A stretch of 64,000 bases of DNA, from contig CM045762.1 of assembly GCA_025200525.1 (NCBI GenBank), forward strand, positions 23,873,374-23,937,373, read 5' to 3'. Numbering within the stretch: position 1 is the stretch's first letter; every line of letters begins with the position of its first letter. The DNA comes from Camellia lanceoleosa (taxonomy: Eukaryota > Streptophyta > Magnoliopsida > Ericales > Theaceae). The position numbers and the translations under genes are program-made. Shown here piece by piece: positions 30,103 through 63,541 of this stretch. The notes beneath the pieces were generated by a model. It ran no database searches. It saw only the letters and a list, made by a program, of their open reading frames with translations, and was not told the DNA's origin.

Positions 30103-31129
30103 CTTAACAATGCTGGATTTCTAGATTTTGTACTGAAAAAAGTTTGTTAGGATTTTGTGGTGTCGTGTATTTAGGGGAAGAATGGAATGAACGATCGGGT
30201 GCGAATGTTGTGTTGGTGGCGTTTCGGAATCGGCGGAGAGGCTGTGCCGCTCTTCGTCTTCTCTCTCTCTGATATTGTAAAACTTTAGAATTGTTTTGGT
30301 CCGATTATTAAAGGGAAGCGACGACGTAGTGTGCCCGATAATATAGGACTTGTCAAAAAAGATTTTGGATATTTTCCCTCCCCCAAGTCTCTAAAAATAG
30401 TCACTAAAAAAGTCGTAAATGGATTTCCTTTTGTGTCCCAATAATATAGGACTTGTAAAAAAGGTTTAACTTTCTAATCACTATCAATTTTGGGTATGTT
30501 TACTCCCCCAAGTCTCTAAAAATGGTCACTAAAAAAGTTGTAAAAAGATTCTACTTTTGGTTTGGTTTTATCGAAATTTACTTTTCTAAAAATTTAAAAG
30601 ATAAAAATTGATTTAGTGAAAATTAATAAATCAAAAAAACTTGTCGTTCTTACTTGGGGTCTCGTAATTATGTTAGTACAAGTCGGGTCAAATGTGTTTT
30701 CATCTGGCATCTGCCAAACTTAACGAATGGGTTGATTGGTTGACAAGTGGATATATATTGATTTAACAATTTGAATTTTATTGTTTTGGGACTTTTTTTA
30801 GACTATTTTCATAATTATTAACTATTTTGCACTCAAGAGTGTTGGCTTATTGGGTTGGATCCTGTGGCTCCCATCCGCTATCCATCCAAACTTAAGCGGA
30901 TTAAAATAAATGCATGTGCATTCATCTGTTCGTTTCATTGAAATCGTCCATTCTATGACAAATTGATTCGGGTCATTTAGTTTTGATAAGTTGGATCAAT
31001 ACTTCACTAGCCATAATCTTCATATGATTCTATTTTAGTTTTAGAATAAAATAATTTTAAAAAAAATAATAATGTTTATTTTTACAAAAATGTGAAAAAG
31101 CTTAAAATAGGATGTTAATACAACAATAA

Positions 31130-32162: not shown

Positions 32163-32234
32163 ATGTTTACAATCAAATCAATTTTCCCTTTTTTAATAAG
32201 ATGAAATTAGTTACGGTGGAAATAATATTACATC

Positions 32235-40450: not shown

Positions 40451-41563
40451 GCTAATGTAAACTAGTACCATGCATAAATCCCAACAAACACTTAACTGCC
40501 CACACAAAAAACCCACACTTCAAGTAATCACTCTAATTCAAAACACAATTTCTCAAAAACATATGCATCAAAACACCCCAAAAAATGCAAACAACATTAA
40601 CCTGAACATACTATCAACACTACGTATCAACATTAACAATAACCACAATTCAACAAATTACAACACACATATAACCACTATCACAGATTAATGTGAACAC
40701 CAGGGAGAACATCATGAGTGCACATACATAACGGAACAACTTACCCGATGTCATTTGTTGATGACACAATTACCGGCGAGGAAGAATCGATGTTGTTTTG
40801 TCATCACAAGACACACACAATCACACGGCCACTCCAACTTCACCACGTAAACGTATTGCCAAAATAGGGGCTTCGTCTGCCTCTAGGGTTTACAAAGCAA
40901 AAGAAAGGTTCAACTTACAATACAAATCCACACTGAATCAACGTTGCCTGCTGCGAATAGATCACTAACATCGGAACACAGCACAACTTCTCTATTATGT
41001 CTCTTCCATTCTGATTGGTTTTGAGGGAAACCAAAATTCCCCTTACGAAAGATTTGGGACATAAATTTAAATGCAACATCAACAAAACCCACAATTACCC
41101 CTTACTTTACGTTATAAAACATGGGGTAATATGTCTTTCACACTAGGATGGAACCTATTGGTTCATCAAATTAAAGTTAGGACTAAATGGATTAGAAGAT
41201 TGGAATTTAGGATTTAATGGTGCATCTCCCAACAAATTATACTTTTCCTCTTTAACCTACACTCAGTAAAACATTTAATCTCTTAACTAAAACTACTATT
41301 TTGTACTATATTGAACTATCAATTTAACAATTTGCATTATGATAACTCAACTTGAGAAATTCTTATGTATTCTCATTTTAACAGCAAATAAGAATATTAG
41401 AAGCTATTGCATGATATAAATTATAGTTAAAATATATCATTTGGAGACAATGTTAACAACTCTTTGAAATACATTCATTCATACCCAATATTTATGTTGG
41501 AAATTATTATTATATAAACTAATAAATCTTATAATTTTTTTACTCATTAATGTGTCACCTATC

Positions 41564-46805: not shown

Positions 46806-48089
46806 TTTTCATTATATTTTATTTTATTGTTTTTATTGCATGACAATCAATGAGTAAAAAAGTTACGTAAGTAACATTTCAGTGGTATGTTAAATATAAT
46901 ATAAATTTGATATAAAAGTTTATAAATTTATTTTTTTTATGTTGCAAATTTTTTATTCATTTCATAATATTTTTCCCTCACTCCACCTGAGTGATAATTT
47001 TTTCAAAAAATTTGTAAAGATTGTTAGTTTGTACTGTATTTTCATGTTAAAAATAATACACGATAGTTATGTTATGAAACTGAAAATTGTTTTGCTCCGA
47101 CTATTAAAGGGAAGTAGTGTCCCCAATAATTATAGGACTTGTAAAATAAGATTTTGGATATTTTTCCTCCCCCAAGTCTCTGAAAATAGTCACTAAAAAA
47201 AGTTGTAAAAAGATTACTTTTGTGTCTCAATAATATAGGACTCGTAAAAAAGATTTAACTTTCCTATTACTATCAATTTTGGATATTTTTACTTCCGCAA
47301 GTCTCTAAAAATAGTCACTAAAGAGTTGTAAAAAGATTACTTTTGGCTTTGGTTTTCTAAATTTGCTTTTTGGAAATTTAAAAGATAAAAATTAATTTAG
47401 TGAAAATTAATAAATCAAAAATGCTTGCCGTTTTTACTTGGAGTCTCGTAATTAGGTCGGGTCGGGTGAGTTTCCAGCTGTCATCCGTTCATACTTAGCA
47501 GATGGATTGATTGGTTGAAGAGTGGATATATGGTTTAACGGTTTGAATTTTACTATTTTGAGACTTTTTTAAGACTATTTTCCAATAATTATTAACTATT
47601 TTGTACTTAAGAGTGTTGGTTTATTGAGTTGGGTCGGATGGCTCCCATCCGCCATCTGTCTAAACTTAGACGGATTGAAAGAAATGTATCTGCATATGTC
47701 TGTTCGTTCTATTAAAATCGTCTATTTTGTAACAATTTGATTTGAGTCATTCAATTTTGATAGGTCGGATGAATGCTTGACTAGTCATAATTTTCATATG
47801 ATTTTATTTTATTTTTTGAAGAAAATAAATTTCAAAAAAATAATAATGTTTATTTTTATTAAATTAATTTTTGTTTTGAAAATGAAATTAAAGATTAATA
47901 CAAAAATGTGAAAAGCTTAAAGTAGAATGTTAATACAACACTTTTACTCTATTGTATTCGTGTATGTGGCAGGTTGGATATATGGATGTGTCTTTAAATA
48001 GCATGATGATTTGACCGCATATTCTATTTTTCAGACATGTTTATAATCAAATCAATTTTCCCTTTTTAATAACACTACAAGAATTAACA

Positions 48090-48770
48090 CTTTTGGCAAC
48101 AAAAAAATTGGTCGCTAAAAGTCTATTTTTAGTCGGCAAAAGTTATCCGCGACCAATTTTTTTGGTCGCTACTTTGGTCGCCAATTGAGGGTCGGCAAAA
48201 GTAATTCGCGACCAAAATTTTGGTTGGTCGGCAAAAGTTGGATTTGCCGACTAAATTCTTGGTCGCTAATTATTTAATTACCGCGACTAATTTATTTTGT
48301 CGCTAAAACATTTTGGTCGCGAAAAGTCGCCTTTTGCCGACCAAATTTCTTAGTCGCCAATTGACACATATCGCGACCAAAAAATTTGGTCGCCAATTGC
48401 GACATTCCGCGACCAAAAATTTTGGTCGCCAATCGTGACATTCCGCGACCAAAAATTTTGGTCGCCAATCGTGACATTCCGCGACCAAAAAAGTTTGGTC
48501 GCCAATCGTGACATTCCGCGACCAAAAAGTTTGGTCGCCAATTGTGACATTCCACGACCAAAAAAGGTTTTGGTCGCCATTTGTTACTTTTCGCGACCAA
48601 AACTTTTGGTTGGCAAAAGTGAGTTTCCACGACCAAGAGCTATTTTGGTCGGCAATAGATGTATTTTTTGCGACCAAAACTCTTGGTCGGCAATTGTCAT
48701 TTTTTGCAAAAAAAATTATTTTGGATGTCGCGACTAATAAATTGGTCGCCAAAACAGGAAAACAATACAC
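48090..48770. repeat. left subterminal palindromic repeat array of the CACTA element
   Basis: There are roughly a dozen units. The best-preserved (48365-48560) have the core CGCGACCAAAAATTTTGGTCGC followed by CAATNGTGACATTC, spaced 35-45 bp apart. Each core is an inverted repeat in itself. In En/Spm such subterminal motifs are TNPA-binding sites. ORFs on both strands over this array are by-products of its periodicity. Confidence 0.9.
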
Positions 48771-49065
48771 CTGTAATTCCTAATAATTCATTCAATCCAT
48801 AATAAACCTATAATTTTAAAGTATCATTCAAATTAACTGAATCATTAACATTCGACACAATACATAATTCATTAACATTCGACACAATACAACTATTCTA
48901 AGTTTTCATTCACAAGTCACATCCATCTAGCATAACAATTTGAAACATAACTATTTGTTATCCATGCGCAGCTATCAACAAATAAAACTACTAATATTTG
49001 TTATCCATACATATCCATCCAAAAATATTTAATCCTCCCAAAAATGCTCATACTGCCAAGTAGTC

Positions 49066-50462
49066 TTGTACAATTTTCTTTCATCTTATTTGTATGAATC
49101 TGAAGAATTTGTAAGCGACCATGCTCATCAGGAAGGCTTATCTCCACTTCGACTTCCAAACGTCCAACTGAAAAAGAAAAGAGTCAAAATCCATTTCAAG
49201 AAGAGAGAGAGAGAAGAATTAAAATCTAATTTAGTAAGAAATCTTTATTTAGGAACTTGTCCATATAAAATAATTTCTCTTGAAAATGTCAAACAATCAT
49301 CAATTTTATACCCATTAACCATAATGAAATAATTTTATTTAGCACAACAGAGAAGAGGTATGCACTATAGAAGTCACCTCAAAAGTGCTTCATCAAGCAA
49401 ATCCTTCTGTTGGTCACCCAATCAAAAAACATTGTTCGTTGACTCAACACCATCTATCTAAACAAAGAAGTAATTTTCAATCGGTTCACGAAATTTGTTA
49501 GCTTTGGTGTAGCTTTACCACAGTGACATTTTCCTACTAATATTACAGAGAAGTTGAAATACAATTAAACAAACCTTTGTTAGGAGCTAGTTGACAATGC
49601 TATCATGAACTCCAGTACCATCTCTAGTTGAACCTCTTGACTGCAAGAGCAAGCCAAAGAATAAATTACATAACCAAATAATCAAACTGTTATAGCAATA
49701 ACAAATTATCTTAATTTATTGGATAACATAACACCAGAAGAGATTGCAGAATGGCTAACAATTACATGGCTCATCAACTAAATATTTACTAACATCAACT
49801 AAATCAAAATAGACGTTGGGACCTAATTTGCAGATTGAGCAATGAAATTAAAAACTAGTTGTCGGCAAATGCAAGTCCTCAGAAGTGTGAATGTTAATAA
49901 GACTTGTCAGACAAGCTCTCGAAAGTGTGATGTTCTCTAGACTACATTCATATAATGTAAAAACATTTATTTGAGGATTCAGATTGTTTGCTCAATCTGA
50001 AAATCAAACATTCAAATCATTACTCAACAGTTCTTTCATGATGAAGCAGCAGTTGAATGTGCACTTCAACAAAACTCTTTTTCTTCATAAGAAAAGCAAA
50101 AGGGAAGAGAACCCAAAAAATTCCATTCATCATATAACCACCAAAACTTATACTCAGCGACCCCATGGCAAATAATAGCAGCTAATTGTTCTGCCAACCC
50201 ACAAGTTCAAGAAGCAGTGAGAAACATTCAACTAAAATTTTGAGAGCTCCTACCTTACAAATTGCATCAATTTCATCAAATAACATGCAAGTCACTTTGA
50301 TCCCCTGAAAAGAAGAAATGAAAGCATTAGACATAGAAGGGAACGACCAAAAGTAACTTTAGCCAGTGTGGCCCTCTTACCTTGAGTTCTCTGGTCCTGT
50401 TCAACATCAGCAAATAAATCTCTCACATTCTTCTCAGTTTCACCAACAAATTTGCTTAACAC
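49066..50462 (-). pseudogene. NSF: captured fragment of NSF (AAA+ ATPase, D1 domain), five exons
   Basis: NSF is the ATPase that disassembles SNARE complexes. Exon-like blocks, with intervening introns and mostly intact borders, read as follows. Block 50462-50381: [20 protein letters not shown]. Block 50304-50254: MLFDEIDAICK, the Walker B region. Block 49640-49575: SRGSTRDGTGVHDSIVN, then a stop where Gln is expected, then LLTK. Block 49457-49378: IDGVEST, then a frame-disturbed TNRKDLLDEALL region. Block 49167-49066: [20 protein letters not shown] followed by [11 protein letters not shown]. The Walker A part and the D2 domain are absent. Retained introns show capture at DNA level rather than by retrotransposition. 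Stops and frameshifts rule out an active ATPase. Confidence 0.88.
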
Positions 50463-51019
50463 TTAAGGCCCATTAACACTTCAGGCCCACTGTGAGGTCC
50501 AAACATTTTTTGGTTTTTAAGCCTTGGAGAAGTAGAGTCGACATATTTCTAAATCCTTTTTGAGAACTAAGGCATTGGACAAAACAATACCTTAATTAAA
50601 TAGCAACTGTTTGATGGTTAATATTTAAGATGGCTACAGGCAATAATTAGACCCTTAACAGTGGCTACCCTTCGGAACTAATATGAAAGAACTTCTGAAA
50701 CCACTACATGGACAACATAGAATTTAAAAGAACATTAACATGGAAAAACGAAACTCTCCAGTACACCTCTTTCATATATACCTAACTAGTACTCTTATTT
50801 CCAAAACTCTCCACATTATCCCTCTAGAAACCCAATCATGTGTTTTTTTTTTGTTTATGTCAATAAACACCTTATGGAGGTCTATGTTTTTCATTAGTCG
50901 ACTAAGTAGAAAAATAGCTCTATGTGAAAATTTTCTCAGATTTCGATCACATCATCGCGAGATCCTTTACTATAGTTGATGTCTAATGGGCACCCCAGAT
51001 GCAAGGGAAGAGCACATAC

Positions 51020-51150
51020 CTGTGGTTCAGAAAACTTGATTGTGGGTGATGCTATAAGTCCAGCAAGATCATGCTCCATATATTCAAATACAAGGCATAA
51101 ATTGCCTAACACCTTTGAAATGACTAGACCCTCAAGAACAAGGAACCAAG
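51020..51150 (-). pseudogene. captured exon of a CDK-like protein kinase
   Basis: The translated segment contains LEGLVISK and [17 protein letters not shown], then IKFSEPQ followed by a GT donor at 51019-51018. YMEHDLAGL is characteristic of plant CDK-like kinases of the CDKC/IBS1-like group, at the hinge between N- and C-lobes. Catalytic motifs (HRD, DFG) are not present. It is joined in frame to the dymeclin fragment upstream within one 108-aa ORF (51262-50936). Confidence 0.8.
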
Positions 51151-51186
51151 AGAACAAGGAACCAACAAAGCTTGGAACATTTTTCA

Positions 51187-51843
51187 GAATTATGATCATC
51201 AAGGAACCAAGAGAAGTTTGATGGAGCAGGCGTTCTTGGTACCATGGAACACTTGGCAGCATCTGTTCAAATAAATAAGATGTTAATATGATCTTTATAT
51301 AATCCAGTTAAATGATAGCCTAAAGAGGCAGTACTCACCAGCTTGTGAATACTGGCATTGAAAGAAGAATCTTGACTAAGTACTAGCAGAATAATCAGCA
51401 CCATGTAGATTTGATTGGATGTCCCTTTTGAAGCATTATACAGTGTTTCCAGTATGGGCATCAACTGTTGATTTCATTGCATAATGCAAATAAAATTAAG
51501 ATATGTGGCATTTATGTTACGTAAACTACTAAAAATGATGACTGCTCATAAGATTTTTTAGTTACCATTGTACACAAAATTTTGTAAATCGTGTCCATGA
51601 CATCACTTATCTGACAAGTAATAACCATTGTTCTTTTTTTTTCTAAAAATTTTATTTTATCTCTTGCCAAGGTTACCACACAACAATAGGTGGGCTAACT
51701 AAATACAAATAAGATGGAAATGATAGCTGCAACTCCATACCAGTGTATCCAAATCTGTTCGTACCAAGACATACTCCAGAAAATCTGAGTTCCCATGCAC
51801 TAATGAGTAAAGCAGTAAGATAGCAGTTTCATCAGCCAAGTAC
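51187..51843 (-). pseudogene. captured fragment of dymeclin, three exons
   Basis: Dymeclin is a conserved Golgi-associated protein. The blocks are 51843-51741 ([20 protein letters not shown] then [14 protein letters not shown]), 51464-51339 ([20 protein letters not shown] ... [14 protein letters not shown]) and 51262 to about 51187 ([20 protein letters not shown] then MIIIL). Each is bounded by AG acceptor and GT donor signals. The order and orientation are those of the parent gene. The last block runs without a stop into the kinase fragment. Confidence 0.85.
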
Positions 51844-52029
51844 CTGAGGAGACAGTAGTCACAAAACCAATAAATTTACTTAAAGGATAAACAAATAGAT
51901 AATACAATTTGATGATATGCACATAAAGTTTTTAACGGTGAATGCATTATGCTAGGCACTTTACCCCTTGTGACGCAAGGTATAAGCCTCAAGGCGTAAA
52001 CATTTTGAATTTTTATATTTAGTGAACAA

Positions 52030-52330
52030 CTAAAATGGCTTAGTGTCATCATCCCATTCAATAAATTTTCTGTGGCATAACCATCTGAGAGAATCCTGTG
52101 CTGACTTCACTACATCTTCAAATGGCTTTGTAGAATTGAGAAGAGTACACCTCACATATCGATGAATATCATTGGCAGTTTGAACAATTCCACCAGCGAC
52201 AACTTCTAAGATTGCATGGGTCATCCCATTCGTATCTTCAGAAAGACAAGAATGCAGCAGACAGCTGTCACTAAGAATTCCCATAATTCTTTTGACATCT
52301 TCTAGTTTGCAAAGTAGAACCTAGTTAGAT
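52030..52330 (-). pseudogene. captured fragment of a DNA polymerase theta / TEBICHI-type helicase
   Basis: The open segment reads [14 protein letters not shown], then [31 protein letters not shown] and [19 protein letters not shown]. This resembles the winged-helix region after the helicase core of Pol theta/HELQ proteins, where a similar ILE-I-x-GG and CTLL pattern occurs. Helicase motifs and the polymerase domain are absent. Identification is from memory of the family; a different HELQ-like parent is possible. Confidence 0.65.
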
Positions 52331-53220
52331 GAAATCATAAAAATGATCAAAATTAGAATATTACACTGACTTCCCTGTTAGAGTTGTTGGCTGACCAAGA
52401 TTAAAGGGAAACGTGAAGTTAACCTTTTGCTCTTTAACAATACCAAAATTCCATCACTATATTTCTATCCAAACAAATCCTTTCCTTTAGTATCTGTTAC
52501 CAAACAAACACATATTTCAAAACCATCCATTTTGCTCTCTAACCAAACACTATCACCACCCACAACCTCCCCTATTTCATTAGCCAAACAAAATCCAATG
52601 CCATCCCCCATTCCATTGTTCCCACCTGTGCCTCCACCTTCACTACTCCACACTCTCTGTCCCACTCATTCTCCCATTCTGTCTATTGATTGCATCACCT
52701 AAAACCCACAACACAGTTGGTGAATCAATTATAGGATTATGGGGCTACCACCACCACCGTAGCATACAAATCCAAAGAAATTCACTGCATCTATTTGGTA
52801 AACTAACATTGATTGAAATAAGGATTTTATGTTAGGGAAGGGTTTTAGCCATGGAAGTCGTGCATTGATCACACGATTTCAATGAAATCGTGAAATCAAT
52901 ACACATATTAACTCTCCATTGCTTTTAATATCATATTTTCAAAAAACGTTTTATCTTAAAGTCATGTTTTGAAAACATGATTTCAAAAACAAACTTGGTT
53001 TGGTATATAATTTCACAACGGCTCGAGTTTGGGAAATTTGTTTCGAAATGACGTGTGTTTGGTATAAAAAAAAAAAAAAACTATCTATTCACGTTACACA
53101 GCCAACGTGGTCTCATATTTTAAAATTTCATTAGGGCTTAGATATTCACACTGCAGCAGATCCCCCTAAACATACAAGACACATATAGGCTTGAACACGA
53201 GAGCAGGAGGAAGAAACAAA

Positions 53221-53282
53221 CCGCAGACATCATCTCCAGTGGCATATTTCCCAAAGATAATCTTTTAATAGCTTCTCAAGAG
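53221..53282 (-). pseudogene. captured exon resembling zeta-class glutathione transferase
   Basis: After an AG acceptor (53284-53283) the sequence reads ALEKLLKDY, then, after a one-base shift, GKYATGDDV. This matches the ALEKLL...GKYATGDEV segment of GSTZ/maleylacetoacetate isomerase. It is only about 60 bp, so the call is tentative. Confidence 0.5.
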
Positions 53283-53289
53283 CTGCAAT

Positions 53290-55130
53290 GTGTGTACATA
53301 GAAATCAGCTCAAATTCAACACTCAATTTTCAAAGCAACCTTAATCATATCATAGCAAACTTGATTTTTGGTCACTGTTTGCCCAGAAATTACCAAACTC
53401 TAATGGAAAATTTCCCAACTTAAAAGTTAAAATAGGTTAGGATTTTTTCAGAGGAATTCTACAAAAAGAAACTCCTATCGATGATGAATTTAAATCAGCA
53501 GTGATTTTTTTCCTAATGCTTAGTACAAGATCAAATTCTCACCTAACTTCATGGTAATTGAAACTTAAACCAATAGGAAGACATGATGCACTTTCAATCC
53601 ACTCCCCACATTCATGGAGATGATTACCTATTGAATATGCTAATCCTAATTATGTATGTTCAATCAGATAAATTGATGCATTCTTATTGAATGCGTTGAT
53701 TAATCCTTTTAAAGCACCAGAACTTCTGTGCAAAGTCCTATATTTGATACAATACTAAGATCATTTGAATGGTTTGTAGATCCTCATGGCATAAAATATA
53801 AAGTTGCCTCAAATTTAACTTGCATTGCACATAAGTTGTCTGGCTTGAAAAAAAGGAAAAAGAAAAAAAGGATAGAACATGTTTCCATTGGACTGAACCA
53901 TAGGTTGTATTAAAAAAGTTCCATCTTTTCAATATAAGGCATACTAAAACAAGGTATATTAATGACATGCCAATTTTCATTTGTTGAACTCCAACACTCG
54001 TCTTTAGACACTTCTGACACGTGTCAAACACGTCCAGTTATTATTATTATGATGATTATTATTATCAACTAAAATTTAAACTCAGACACACTTTGGAAAT
54101 TTGAGGGACACATAACATTACAAATTTGAACAAAATAAATTAGGAACTAATAATTATAAAAAAAAAATGTAAATTTATACCCATTAATCCATTCTCATTT
54201 GAACTTTGGAAATGCGTGTTATGTTGTGTATTTTTATTAACTTTGACTGAAATATTTATATATATAACATATGATAAATATAAAAAAATTATATTTTACT
54301 CATGACCCCACGTAATGTCCTGCACTTTTTTTGAAAACTGTTGTATCGGTGTCCATGTCCATGCTTACTAGATTATAGGGTTTTTGGTAGAGGACAAAGT
54401 GAAGATTTGAATAGATAACAAGATCATATCTTCTACTTTTTATGTATTTGTTTGATGATCCTAACAAAGTGTCCATGCATACTTTTTATGTATTTATTTT
54501 ATCAAAATAAAACTTGTTCTTGTAGTGAGAGTGTATTTTGAAATAAAATAAACAAATAAATAAAATCAAGATAGGAGAAGATGAGAGCAGAGAGCTTTCC
54601 ATTTTTGTAAAAAAACACTAATAGATGCAATCACTATCCCTTTGCTCTGTTTCTCGCAACCAAACAAATGTTAAATAAGCAAGATCGAGCATAAAACACC
54701 AATTAAAGTTTAAGGACCAGAGCTTGACGGCAAATTTTCAAGTTTAACGATGAAACCCAAATTTTCCAAATTTCCCAAGAGCTTCAGCAGACTTTCAAGA
54801 ACAAATCACAAAATCCCCAAATTTGAGAATAAATTTAGAACAAATCAAACCCAAATTTCCAAGAAAAAATCAACCCAAATTTCACAAATTTAAATAAATT
54901 TCTGAAACGAATTTACAAAATAAAGACCTGGATTCTAGTATGATTGATGAATTTCTTCTTTGGGATTGATTTGCAGATGAGCTTCTTCTTTGGGATCGAT
55001 TTAAACCGTAGTTAATCGATGAGACTTCTCTAACGCAATACAAAACATATATATATATACATAAACCCTAAAACCATTGTAAAACCCCAAATCAATGACC
55101 TTTGAACAACACAGTCATACAAAATCAACT
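53290..55130. other. unassigned interior of the Pack-CACTA element
   Basis: AT-rich sequence between the GSTZ-like and CSN8 fragments. No coding match was recognised. A palindromic ACACGTGT motif is at about 54019. Some stretches (54720-54930) are rich in CCCAAATTT-type repeats. It may contain captured introns or promoter DNA that cannot be traced by eye. Confidence 0.4.
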
Positions 55131-55133
55131 CAC

Positions 55134-55352
55134 ATGTCGCCGATGTAGATGTGGCCTAGAAGATGAATCGAGTAGGGCCATTCATCACGAATGTAATCCC
55201 TGCGTTGAAACCTAGGCGAGAGAGAGAGCGAGTAAATTAGGGTTTGATAAGAAGAGAGATCAATAATAGAATAGAAGGATGGGTAGTGTATGTGCCTGGA
55301 GGATGAGGTCGTCGCAGATATCGGCGATCTTGTCGTAGGATTTGGAAGCCAT
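55134..55352 (-). pseudogene. CSN8: captured first two exons of COP9 signalosome subunit 8
   Basis: CSN8 (COP9/FUS7) is a subunit of the complex that removes NEDD8/RUB from cullins. Exon 1 (55352-55296) starts with ATG and reads MASKSYDKIADICDDLILQ. Its donor is GC rather than GT. Exon 2 (55199-55134) encodes DYIRDEWPYSIHLLGHIYIG followed by D and a GTGAGT donor. The remaining exons are missing. It is the most 5' gene fragment in the element, so it could bring a promoter, start codon and leader for transcription through the other captured pieces. Confidence 0.8.
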
Positions 55353-55699
55353 TGCGTCGCTGTGGATCGCTCACGACGGTTAGATCTCGGCCTAGGATTC
55401 AAATCTGATTTAGATTTCGACGATCTTCTCGGATCCGGCAGAGGCACCAGTGGAGGAGGAGGAGAAGGAGGCGGATCATCGACGGCGGTGGGTGTTTAGG
55501 GGAGAGAGAGAGAGAGAGAGGCACCAGAGGAGGACGGATGAGGATCATCGACGGCAGTGCTCATCTGCGGCGGTGGCCGTGGCGATCTGTGCCGGTGGTG
55601 GTGGCCTGCGGTGAGGTGAGGCTTGGTGTGAGAGGTTTGAACAAATGGTTGTAAACAGAGAACAGGGGCGGTGATATGTATCCCACGGAAAAAACATTT

Positions 55700-56045
55700 C
55701 ATCTTTAGCGACAAAATTTGTTTTTTGTTGCAGAATCTTAACATATAACGACCAAAATTTGGTCGGCCATTGTCTACCAGTGCATTTACATATCAAAACG
55801 ACGTCGTTTTGATATCTGCGACTAAATTGTGTTGGTCGCTAAAAGATATTCTTGTACCAATCTTTCACCTCCTGACATCATTTTTAGCGACCAATGTTTT
55901 AAATTGGTCGCAGAAAATCACCTTTTTGCAACAAAATTATTTTAGTTGGTAATAATATCAACTTTTAGCTACAAAATATTTTTTGGTCGGAAAATGTCAT
56001 TTTTTTGCGACTAAAATTTTTTTGGTCGGCAAAAGTGGTCGGCAA
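55700..56045. repeat. right subterminal repeat array of the CACTA element
   Basis: Degenerate copies of (G/A)CGACCAA...TTGGTCG(C/G) and TTTTAGCGAC motifs, spaced 40-60 bp, mirror the left array. They include AAACGACGTCGTTTTGAT, itself palindromic (55795-55812). Confidence 0.8.
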
Positions 56046-56866
56046 ATATGTAAATTCTTGTAGTGTAAGATGAAATTAGTTACGGTGGAAATAGTATTAC
56101 ATCAGTTGAGTTCGTATCTTATCATACATCTTAGGGTTAGTATTAGAATGGTTTAGTATTAGAATTTTGGGTTGGTATGAAAATTTCATTAAAATTAACT
56201 CCACTCATTTAATTTTTTATATTATTATATCAAGCTATATTAAATTAGTGTTTTATTTATATCTTGTTAATTTATCATATCAAACAATTTTCATATTTAA
56301 TTAAAAAATAAAAAATATATAGATATGTATAAGTTAAAATTTTATGAGAAGTAATCACTTGGAGCTGAAATTATTTATAAATATTTAATTTTAACTCAAT
56401 TTCAGTTATATTTAACATATATGAATATGTAAACTCTATTTTTAATTATATTGACTTTAAATAATAAACAAAGATGTAAGGTTATTTCAAATGGGAAAAA
56501 AAATAATTAGAACAAATTATACTTTACCTCTTTAACCTATCACTCAATAAAACATTTAATCCCTTAACAAAAAATACTATTTTGGACTGCATTGAACTAT
56601 CAATTTAATAGTTTGCATTATGATAACTCAACTTGAGAAATTCTTATGTATTCTAATTTTAACGGGGCAAATAATAAGAATATTAGAAGCTATTGCATGA
56701 TATAAATTATAGTTAAAATATATCATTTGGAGATAATGTTAACAACCCTTTGAAATACATTCATCCATATCCAATATTTATGTTGGAAATAATTATTGTA
56801 TAAACTCACAAATCTTATAATTTTTTTACTCATTAATGCGTCACCTATTAAAGTGAGTGATGTTTT

Positions 56867-58442
56867 TGTAGAAGGTCAGAAATTAAATCCCAAATTAAGT
56901 ATGGGCCTAAGTACTGAGGTCGCCCTTCTGAGACGACTAGGAAAGAAAAAAGAGTATGAGCTAAAGCCCAAGGGAAGTGGGCCATCAATGGGCTGAAGTA
57001 GGTCCGACTCGCCAAGGGTTCAAAAGGACTCCACGAAGGAAAATGCCTAAGTCAAGTTGCAGAGGCAACACATGCGACGGTCAAGTTGTAGAGGGAATAC
57101 TTGCGGCGGTCAAGTTGCTGAGGCACTTTGTCTCAGCGCCGCCATTCCCCAATGATGTCGGTTCAGCCCCCACTTGGAGTTGCTGAGGGAAGGAGAGAAC
57201 CGAAGCAACTAAGTTGCAGAAGCATTACTTGCAGCGCCCAAGTTGCAGAGGCACTTTGTCGGCGCCGCCATCTCCAATATTGTCGGTTTTGCCATTTAAA
57301 CTTGCAGCGGGAAATGACTACCGCAGCAACTACAGCCGCCGCAACCAACTTACGGAGGGAACATTCCACCAAGGTGATAGCAACCTTTGGGAAAAGCTCC
57401 CCTCTGCAAGTAGAGGCTAATACTTGACGCAGATAGCAGGCCCCAAGGCATTACTAGCCTAGGGTTGATAGCAGGCGCCAAAGTTCATTACCTTGGCGCT
57501 GTTAGCAGGCCCCAAGACTTACTGGTTAGAGCTGATAGCAGGCCCAGAGATACCAGTTTATCGTGGCAACCCCGCGAAGATGGGAGTAGGGCAGCCCGAG
57601 CGCGAGGGACTCCCTTTCCATTTACCTAGGTCATGAACCTACCTTAATCACATAGGTAGGACTAAGGAAGCCTTCTTGGGCTTGGTACTACGGCACAACA
57701 TGACTGATAGCAGGCTTGGCTGTGGCCTTCGCCCTGGGAAGTTGAAGAGTTTGTGGTTAGGTGGCTAAGGGTGGAGGCTTCACTGAGGTGAGCACGAACA
57801 TAGTCGATAGCAGACTAATGGAGTCTTGAGAATGTATGTATTGGGCAAGTAGAACTGAGAAGACAAGTGCAGCAACAAGGTTTACCGTTACAAGTACACT
57901 TGCTGAGGTTCAAGCTGAGAAGGCTAGTGCAGCAACAAACTCTCCTGTTACAACTGCACTTGCTGAGGCTCAAAAGGAAGTTGCAGCGCCAAACACTCTC
58001 GTCACAACTACACTTACTGAGGCTCAAAAAAGGTAGTTGCAGAGGCAAACAGATAGTACATAGTACATGTATAGGGACACGTGACACATCTTGTCAGGTG
58101 GTTCAAGGCAGAATATTCCACGTGATCCTTTAGGACACATGTCATCTCTCTATTTGGCCATTTGGTGTCCTCTTGGTACCAATAAAAAGCTTATAAATAG
58201 GACCTATTTCCCAAGATTCCAGATGATGGATTTTGGGGATTTAGGGGAGATGCTGCCCATTTGTGCACTGCCATACCTTTCTTCTGGAGCTACCTGCTTC
58301 AACCTCACTCAGCTATGCACTCTTCAACTTCCCAGACAGTTGTTACTGCCATCCTCCAGCCATTCCACCATTGTTGGACCATTAGCATAGTTTTGCCTCT
58401 CTAATCACCTTCCTAACCTTGAACCCCTCTATAGTTTTACAT
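56867..58442. other. unassigned GC-richer stretch in copy B, LTR- or promoter-like
   Basis: It is absent from copy A. It contains repeated phrases AAGTTGCAGAGGCA / AAGTTGCTGAGGCAC (57050-57250) and CTGATAGCAGGCCC-type units (about 57430-57560). A coding-like 60-bp minisatellite (listed separately) is followed by a TATA-like TTATAAATAGGACC at about 58191-58204. This resembles the regulatory part of a long terminal repeat, but no matching TG...CA ends or target duplication were found. Confidence 0.35.
57857..58033 (+). repeat. 60-bp minisatellite encoding a 20-aa repeat
   Basis: Units start at 57857, 57917 and 57977 (60, 60 and 57 bp), all in frame within an ORF. The peptide units run EK(T/A)SAAT..., VT(S/T)(T/A)LAE(V/A)Q(A/K), with the third lacking one codon. 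No protein family was recognised. Confidence 0.75.
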
Positions 58443-58654
58443 TTTATTTTATTATTTTTATTGCATGACAATCAATGAGTAAAAAAAGTTAACGTAGTTA
58501 ACATTTCAATGGTATGTTAAGCATAATATAAATTTGATATAAAAGTTTATAAATTTATTTTTTTTATGTTGCAAAATTTTCATTGATTTCATAATATTTT
58601 TCCATCACTCCACTTGAAAAATAATTGTTTCAAAATATTTGTAAAGTTTGATAC

Positions 58655-61489: not shown

Positions 61490-63541
61490 CTATTTCAACC
61501 GAGAAAAGTTTCATCCTCCCTCACACCCGATGCATTCTCCCCGACACTGTTGCTTGGAACTAACTCCGGAATGCTTACAAGATCTATCCCATTTTTGCAG
61601 CCAACATTTGAATGACAACTTGCATTGTACTCATATTTTGAGCCTGGTCAAGTAACTGTTTTCTCTGGTCAACTAATTGTTGTCGTTGGTCAACTAACTG
61701 CTATCGAAGAACAATCACCTCGGAGTAAGGAGCCTCAAAATGTGTAGAAGATGAACTAGTGTCCTTGCGGATCCCATATCTCTTCAAGTAGACCGACCTC
61801 TTCCCAAGTACATCCTTGGAAATCTGTTCCTCAGATAATGGATGTGTGACACTAGGTTGAGACTGCTTAGTGATCTTTGAAACCATAGTGGCCTATGAAT
61901 GAAATTTAAGTTAGCTTAAAACATAATATCAAAATGCAAACATATATTATTGAAATTGAAATAGTTATGGTGACATGATGTTCCTTAGCCGTGCTATTTA
62001 TCCACACTCCCCCTTGTCGGTGACGTTTGTGAGTGTCCTCGAATAGTTTCGTAATAGTTACTTTGCTTCCTTGTACTTTTCATTTCATTAAATTTTCTAG
62101 TTAAACAATAATTATGTATTTATAATTTAGTATGTTCAAATTTGTAAATCTACATTTACAAGCATTAATGCTTGCGATGCAAATGATCTCGAGCCACTCG
62201 TATGATTATACTTCACACAATAAGCTTAAAACATAATATCAAAATGCAAACATATATTATTGAAATTGAAATAGTTATGGTGACATGATGTTCCTTAGCC
62301 GTGCTATTTATCCACACTCCCCCTTGTCGGTGACGTTTGTGAGTGTCCTCGAATAGTTTCGTAATAGTTACTTTGCTTCCTTGTACTTTTCATTTCATTA
62401 AATTTTCTAGTTAAACAATAATTATGTATTTATAATTTAATATGTTCAAATTTGTAAATCTACATTTACAAGCATTAATGCTTGCGATGCAAATGATCTC
62501 GAGCCACTCGTATGATTATACTTCACACAATAAGCTTAAAACATAATATCAAAATGCAGACATATATTATTGAAATTGAAATAGTTATGGTGACATGATG
62601 TTTCTCAGCTGTGCTATTTATTCACACTCCTCCTTGTCGGTGACGTTTGTGAGTGTCCTCGAATAGTTTCGTAATAGTCGCTTTGCTTCCTTCTACTTTT
62701 CATTTCATTAGATTTTCTAGTTAAACAATAATTCTGTATTTATAATTTAGTATGTTCAAATTTGTAAATCTACATTTACAAGCATAAATGCTCGCGATGC
62801 AAATGATCTCGAGCCGCTCGTATGATTATACTTCACACAATAAGCTTAAAACATAATATCAAAATGCAGACATATATTATTGAAATTGAAATAGTTAATA
62901 TCAAAATGCAGACATATATTATTGAAATTGAAATAGTTATGGTTACATGATGCTCCTCAGCCGTGCTATTTATCCACACTCGCCCTTGTCGGTGACATTT
63001 GTGGGTATCCTCGAATAGTCGGTTTGCTTCCTTGTACTTTTCATTTTATTAGATTTTCTAGTTAAACAATAATTTTGTATTTATAATTTAGTATGTTCAA
63101 ATTTGTAAATCTACATTTACAAGCATAAATGCTCACGATGCAAATGATCTCGAGCCGCTCGTATGATTATACTTCACACAACCTCTTGCTTTCATCGCAT
63201 TCTTTGACTTTTCCAACAACTAAAAACAAAAATAAGTAACATTAATTAACATACAAGGAGGATATTACTTTAGTAAATATTTTTATAAATACCATCCAAC
63301 CGTCAGTTTCCCATAGATTGTTAATCATCCATTTCCAATTATCCTATGTACAAGGACATAATGTATGACTTTTGAGGTCAGATACTTTGTCTTTTTTAAG
63401 GGATTTATAGAGCGTGTGTAATCTACTTTTCCATTCAGTGTATAAAGTTTGGCACTTCTGATCAATAATACATCTTATATCCATCATTATTATAGTCTCC
63501 AAAGTCAAAAGTTTGCTACAATTGGAAACAATAAAGCTCAA
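61490..63541 (-). pseudogene. TNPA-like En/Spm (Ptta-type) transposon protein, decayed
   Basis: Fragments in transcript order are as follows. Block 63541 to about 63300 includes TEWKSRLHTLYKSLKKDK and, after a stop, NWKWMINNLWETDGW. Block about 63225-63180 reads LLEKSKNAMKAR. After the tandem array, block 61886 to about 61590 reads MVSKITKQSQPS, LGKRSVYLKRYGIRK and then, past an in-frame stop, a coiled-coil heptad series QLVDQRQ/QLVDQRK/QLLDQAQ. The KSKN...R block followed by VLG-RS-Y and a C-terminal coiled coil is the pattern of plant TNPA/Ptta transposase proteins. Several stops make it non-functional. Confidence 0.7.
61913..63181. repeat. four tandem copies of a 310-bp unit
   Basis: Units begin at 61913, 62223, 62533 and 62843 with AGCTTAAAACATAATATC and end with TATACTTCACACAA(TA). 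The first three are exactly 310 bp. Units 1 and 2 differ at very few positions; units 3 and 4 share extra differences. Unit 4 has an internal 42-bp duplication (TAATATCAAAATGCAGACAT...) and a deletion, and ends near 63181. The array sits between two TNPA-like coding blocks, probably in an intron. Confidence 0.95.

Follow-up and report, generated by a model that had tools for sequence, protein, structure and literature searches.

Gene capture by DNA transposons is still debated, and plant CACTA elements harboring fragments of several host genes are already known. Tgm-Express1 of soybean is a 5.7-kb CACTA element with fragments of five unrelated genes, which are spliced as exons into chimeric mRNAs (PMC1947982). 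For Pack-TYPE elements, a conserved orientation of neighboring insertions has been reported (PMC8903248); further prior art is found in PMC13317346 and PMC8978399. An initial annotation of the locus described here had held that plant CACTA elements usually capture one or a few genes, which is an overstatement. The locus is a 7,993-bp element of Camellia lanceoleosa situated in a 64,000-nucleotide stretch of DNA analyzed as a whole (the window, G000:C5:23873374-23937373; the source genome was searched as 3.0 Gb in 790 contigs). It carries pieces of six host genes, all facing one way. Multi-gene capture being known, this one-way orientation is the part worth following.

The element occupies window positions 48073-56065 and is bounded by perfect 13-bp inverted ends starting with CACTA, CACTACAAGAATT at 48073 (48073-48085, plus strand) and AATTCTTGTAGTG at 56065 (56053-56065, minus strand), as documented by self-comparison of the sequence and by comparison of the full copies. 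It is flanked by the target site duplication (TSD) TAA at 48070-48072 and 56066-56068. The repeat scan placed the subterminal repeats (unit lengths 36 and 39-40 bp) at 48338-48694 on the left (the 36-bp unit with GGTCGC cores) and at 55904-56034 on the right; in the self-comparison, direct and inverted subterminal repeats appeared at 48311-48602. The flanks of the element joined with a single TAA match window positions 32163-32234 (plus strand) over 72 bp with 3 differences. This diverged copy of the flanks devoid of the element is an empty site, and hence the insertion and the TAA duplication are directly documented. Diverged repeat pairs (83-92% identity) are found around the element at 30289-31084 / 47085-47858, 41231-41562 / 56511-56848, and 46812-47023 / 58437-58650; the first pair, together with short matches to 32517, represents an old local duplication, the source of the empty site.

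Inverted ends starting with CACTA, a 3-bp target duplication, and direct plus inverted subterminal repeats characterize the CACTA (En/Spm) type. Helitrons, which are of the rolling-circle type, have neither inverted ends nor target duplications; the window element possesses both, so Helitron identity was rejected. Open reading frames (ORFs) of at least 150 aa were not found within the element except for a repeat-coded one at 48303-48770, and the Pfam scan of its minus-strand frames, the strand covered by the Pfam and PDB scans of the window element, revealed no transposase. The element with host-gene DNA between its ends, which moves along with them, and with no transposase of its own in the minus-strand frames is a non-autonomous Pack-CACTA element. 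The initial annotation, which had described a CACTA element with these ends, repeats, and empty site and lacking a recognized transposase, was borne out in these respects.

The interior contains pieces of six genes, NSF, CDK, dymeclin, DNA polymerase theta (Pol theta), GST zeta, and CSN8, and each of them lies on the minus strand. The PDB searches were run with whole frames bearing X at the stops. The NSF (vesicle-fusing ATPase) fragment at 49072-50480 comprises several D1-domain exons with introns; it matched NSF in PDB at 6.8e-9, and a further exon matched Sec18/NSF at 5.5e-5. The fragment of a CDK12/13/9-like kinase (50489-51136) includes part of one exon and downstream sequence and was named from its matching genomic locus (CDK13/12 at 9e-20). 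Dymeclin is represented by three exons with introns at 51181-52036 (Pfam Dymeclin, 5.2e-20). The Pol theta-like exon at 52039-52345 was recognized by PDB (5.5e-5) and by the Pfam domain HTH_61 (1.3e-19), which occurs in Pol theta and in related helicases. A 2.1-kb block at 52351-54466, common with C6:181.31 Mb, harbors one GST zeta exon near 53231-53290, likewise named from the matching locus: PDB 1e6b (0.0038) was the top of 8 rows, and rows 2-4 likewise carried the annotation maleylacetoacetate isomerase or glutathione transferase. The CSN8 piece (55035-55583) contains the 5′ region and the first two exons, of which exon 1, with the start codon ATG at 55352-55350, is located beside the right end in the element's one 400-bp interval at 57% GC. 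CSN8 is the weakest protein match of the six (PDB COP9 subunit 8, E 0.2), but its identity is strengthened by PF10075 matches adjoining the shared block at six loci (C13:10.117, C13:10.166, C2:17.26, C2:16.85, C9:58.18, and C8:35.04). Thus, all six families named initially stand by Pfam, PDB, or matching loci.

Donor-like loci for these pieces were found in the same genome. The NSF piece, cut within exons at both edges, matches locus L041 (C7:164960075-164961635) at 93-94%, where the exons extend beyond both block edges. The CDK piece matches L044 (C6:171.06 Mb) at 88% over 198 bp (51136-50939), with the kinase exon going on upstream; dymeclin matches L042 (C5:171.15 Mb) at 79-84%. The GST zeta block corresponds to L043 (C6:181.31 Mb) at 87-92% and to a second site at C6:181.35 Mb at 93-95%. 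The Pol theta exon is found at 8 other places at 92-97% identity, and all seven of those examined extend beyond both block edges. Exons 1-3 of CSN8 are present at L052 and L054; L053 contains part of them and additionally matches the right terminal region of the element. Overall, the genome matches extend beyond both block edges for NSF and Pol theta and beyond one edge for CDK and CSN8.

The best matches outside the element copies are located on C7, C6 (two sites ~10 Mb apart), and C5, those of Pol theta and CSN8 lying on several other chromosomes. Since the donor-like loci reside on separate chromosomes or far along C5, the probable donors are unlinked; the pieces share no common contiguous locus. 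Judging by identity and continuity, these loci are probable donors, and the proposed capture from six donors at the DNA level, introns kept, is upheld by the alignment of the fragments to separate loci.

Some of these sequences also recur in their own right. One Pol theta-like exon, together with flanking intron, is found at seven unlinked loci (L045-L051), the exon forming an open frame in 4 of the 7; this exon seems to have been multiplied by a route other than the window element. The GC-rich 5′ region of CSN8 together with exon 1 (55236-55484) recurs alone at at least 13 other places (87-89%), in addition to those carrying the longer right block. NSF-like copies, three each at C4:25.65-26.03 Mb and C5:26.5-27.3 Mb, lie a few hundred kb apart, as if the NSF genes had been locally multiplied in both clusters.

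A query of the genome with the left end of the element gave 91 matches from the best 40 of 2213 candidates, and 20 places were retrieved. Three of them are full-length copies of 8,062-8,134 bp with the TSDs ATG, AGG, and GAT, making four with the window copy; the own target duplication of each copy indicates that the composite moved as a unit. Pairwise differences among the four copies amount to 0.8-6.3% by block, and the three possible splits are nearly equal (13, 12, 10). Such star-like divergence is as would be expected for a burst from one source. The window copy is devoid of ~140 bp between NSF exons (49774/49780) kept in the three others.

The remaining places hold parts of the composite. 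In L017, the common left end is followed by NSF up to 50064, and the final 84 bp of the element are also present; L013 and L014 resemble the left part of L017 with the addition of CDK up to 51133. The left end, NSF up to 49746, CDK, and dymeclin up to 52036 are present in L012, L015, and L016, and the left end with the 52351-54469 block in L019. The other ten places share the left end only, apart from L023, which also has the last 84 bp. L019 and L033 together form an 11.3-kb element (TSD TCA) sharing both ends and the GST zeta block with the window element. Among the right-side matches (from the best 40 of 215 candidates), 13 places span most of 55660-55035 at 77-91%, and two more extend to 54639 and 54674 (C13:27.447, the L019 element, and C15:130.896). 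Across the relatives, both ends are conserved and the differences are internal. The nested parts support stepwise growth, in line with the stepwise capture proposed in the initial annotation.

Given the ends with their target duplications and the empty site, the donor-like loci and nested relatives, and the counts of orientation, it is highly probable that this is a Pack-CACTA element formed by stepwise DNA-level capture, with a suggested orientation preference, and amplified later. The element would have been moved through its ends by a transposase encoded elsewhere, and its interior would have grown stepwise as unlinked chromosomal stretches, introns included, were copied between the conserved ends. 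CACTA transposase genes (TNP2 type, Transposase_21) are numerous in the genome, 150 of 150 scored, out of 2827 candidates, being above the cut-off. In the copying step, gaps would most likely have been filled by repair synthesis that switched templates. The counts suggest that capture or retention favored fragments of one orientation with respect to the ends; the finished composites then multiplied, as in the case of the four full copies. The joints bear on the copying step. The repeat scan revealed a 17-bp duplication at the NSF/CDK joint (50456-50489) and, at the CDK/dymeclin joint (51137-51180), a doubled 16-bp unit whose core is also found in the adjoining dymeclin exon; both look like templated repair filler.

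The six minus-strand pieces of the window element alone give a two-sided p of 0.031. As an independent test, Pfam was run in six frames on the interiors of 12 partial relatives out of 17 (57 minus and 57 plus frame-proteins); L014, L015, L016, L025, and L028, near copies of scanned relatives over the shared part, were left out. At E <= 0.01, where ~0.6 chance matches per strand are expected, ten families were found on the minus strand (AF_C, LRR_1, PCC, CTP_synth_N, Pkinase, DUF7477, Vps54_N, TOPRIM_C, CNNM, and GST_N_3) and one on the plus strand (ABC2_membrane, 2.3e-14, in L021). The count of 10 vs. 1 corresponds to a one-sided p of 0.0059, or to p 0.011 (9 vs. 1) upon removal of GST_N_3, possibly GST zeta. 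Two scans were pooled, the matching member being given for the first only; an earlier Pfam scan of the loci rescanned later had yielded AF_C, CDC48_N, and LRR_1, with the strand not named. The sole exception, the ABC transporter piece at L021 4575-5051, has a plus-strand open frame of 159 aa.

CDC48_N (0.0011, minus) was omitted from the count as NSF again. Matches excluded with E > 0.01 were ASTER (0.1, 0.12), CDC48_2 (0.045), KH_1 (0.023, 0.03), DUF5636 (0.017), CtaG_Cox11 (0.02), ODAPH (0.075), LRR_4 (0.3), LRR_8 (0.6), and a third CTP_synth_N row (0.098) on the minus strand, and Atrophin-1 (0.58), DUF5475 (0.25), DUF5917 (0.098), DUF1516 (0.032), DUF3915 (0.027), and NCOA6 (0.041) on the plus strand. 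Pieces found by eye also stand outside the count: a minus-strand GST lambda piece in L026 (confirmed at 5.4e-13), ATAD2-like and RecQ-like pieces with no PDB match, and, as leads, ETO1-like, LRR kinase, and VPS50-like pieces and a GST zeta N-terminus in the C13 relative.

Several points weigh against the account of stepwise, oriented capture. None of the transposase candidates was tied to the ends of the element as an autonomous partner. The status of the true donors depends on identity and continuity, dymeclin being only 79-84% identical; choosing the relatives by the left end makes the left-anchored ladder in part a matter of ascertainment. Duplicated filler was found at two joints only, and an internal 11-mer similar to an end could favor the fusion of neighboring insertions. 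As to orientation, at E <= 1e-6 the count is 4 minus (CTP_synth_N, DUF7477, Vps54_N, TOPRIM_C) vs. 1 plus (ABC2_membrane), which is not significant; at least 4 of the 10 minus families (AF_C, LRR_1, PCC, Pkinase) are under Pfam's own cut-off; and the right ends were not seen for L018, L020, L024, L026, and others, so a few of the counted pieces could sit outside an element. Fusion capture, the Catoni model described for Pack-CACTA and other Pack types (PMC8903248), is conceivable, with the balance leaning somewhat against it. According to it, two related elements of the same direction insert nearby, their inner ends decay, and the pair moves as one with the intervening DNA. The conserved outer ends and differing interiors of the relatives fit this model, as does the 11-mer, an exact copy of the right terminal sequence at 54517-54527 (plus strand; expected 0.0045 per element), close to a block joint and a possible relic end. 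However, the segment in which the 11-mer sits (54505-54688) recurs at at least 9 other places, which makes its status as a relic end doubtful, and it gave no proof of fusion; the repeat scans found no subterminal-type repeats at the inner joints, two of which display the duplicated filler instead. The transfer of one contiguous donor locus as a whole, for which no point in favor was found, was rejected as extremely improbable, the best matches of the pieces being dispersed over different chromosomes.

Because of the sub-cut-off families, the 4:1 count of strong matches, the unseen right ends, and the confinement of the window element's own scan to minus-strand frames, an orientation preference in the element and its relatives is suggested, not proven. 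The preference put forward initially thus stands as a suggestion from the 10:1 count at E <= 0.01, its proof being withheld by the count at E <= 1e-6. Chance or shared ancestry is a possible, if somewhat unlikely, source of the one-way orientation: the p-value of the six pieces alone, the inherited parts common to the relatives, and the count of strong matches speak for it, and the distinct families in the relatives, outside the set from which the hypothesis was formed, speak against it (10 minus vs. 1 plus). Selection on proteins was rejected. The NSF exon VHDSIVN bears a stop in 4 of 4 full copies and none in the donor-like locus or six relatives, and the GST zeta exon is shifted in 4 of 4 full copies compared with the donor-like locus and L019; since both defects are common to all four copies, the master copy was already protein-broken in these exons. 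Selection on transcripts, i.e., inward transcription driven by the CSN8 5′ region with sense fragments spliced and antisense ones harmful, is rather doubtful. The location of CSN8 exon 1 with its ATG beside the right end in the GC-rich interval, the recurrence of the CSN8 5′ region at many other places, and the splicing of Tgm-Express1 fragments as exons (PMC1947982) are in its favor; however, L017 and L023, with both ends seen, lack the right-end CSN8 region, yet have their matches (E <= 0.01) on the minus strand, and the stops and frameshifts in the exons also disagree with it. A capture polarity of this CACTA family, placing nearly all host fragments on one strand relative to the ends, is put forward tentatively as an unlikely but possible reading. 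One cause could lie in the copying step: if repair synthesis always started from the same break end and annealed to the sense strand, exposed where genes are transcribed, the strand choice would be set by copying and not by later selection on proteins. If true, the orientation of captured genes would be a readout of how transposons steal genes.

The rest of the interior and the surrounding sequence can be outlined briefly. Segment 54505-54688, of no assigned origin, has 89-93% identity at its other places, and segment 54753-55070 is common with C9:65.13 Mb and C1:36.93 Mb (89-92%); for both, the minus sign refers to the query strand and not to a gene direction. A tandem array with a unit of ~310 bp and copies 91-98% identical spans window positions 61913-63181. 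Rfam and tRNA scans gave no matches, nor did PDB searches with two other window ORFs.

Within a single genome, the family combines capture intermediates with probable donors, an empty site, and amplifications that can be dated, and its possible orientation bias could separate a mechanistic cause from transcript selection. No statement as to which strand of the element captured genes occupy was found in the accessible part of PMC8903248, orientation terms were absent from PMC4528327 on a term search of its available text, and the literature searched, with most subscription papers outside its reach, held no statement that genes captured by CACTA elements show a strand bias. Like the Pack-CACTA and other Pack-TYPE elements of Arabidopsis, rice, and maize, the window element is non-autonomous and combines captured coding DNA from several loci with conserved ends (PMC8903248). 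With maize Helitrons, it shares several fragments per element and stepwise capture (PMC3288121). The CACTA families of wheat chromosome 3B similarly carry many captured genes, with possible exon shuffling; 13% of the captured genes there are reported to be transcribed and under purifying selection (PMC4290129), whereas the exons of the window element are broken. Tgm-Express1 is likewise a CACTA element with unrelated host-gene fragments retaining exon and intron parts, and it includes a CDC2 kinase piece. Five genes and chimeric transcripts have been documented for Tgm-Express1 (PMC1947982), whereas the window element holds pieces of six genes, exists in four full copies, and is accompanied by a graded series of relatives.

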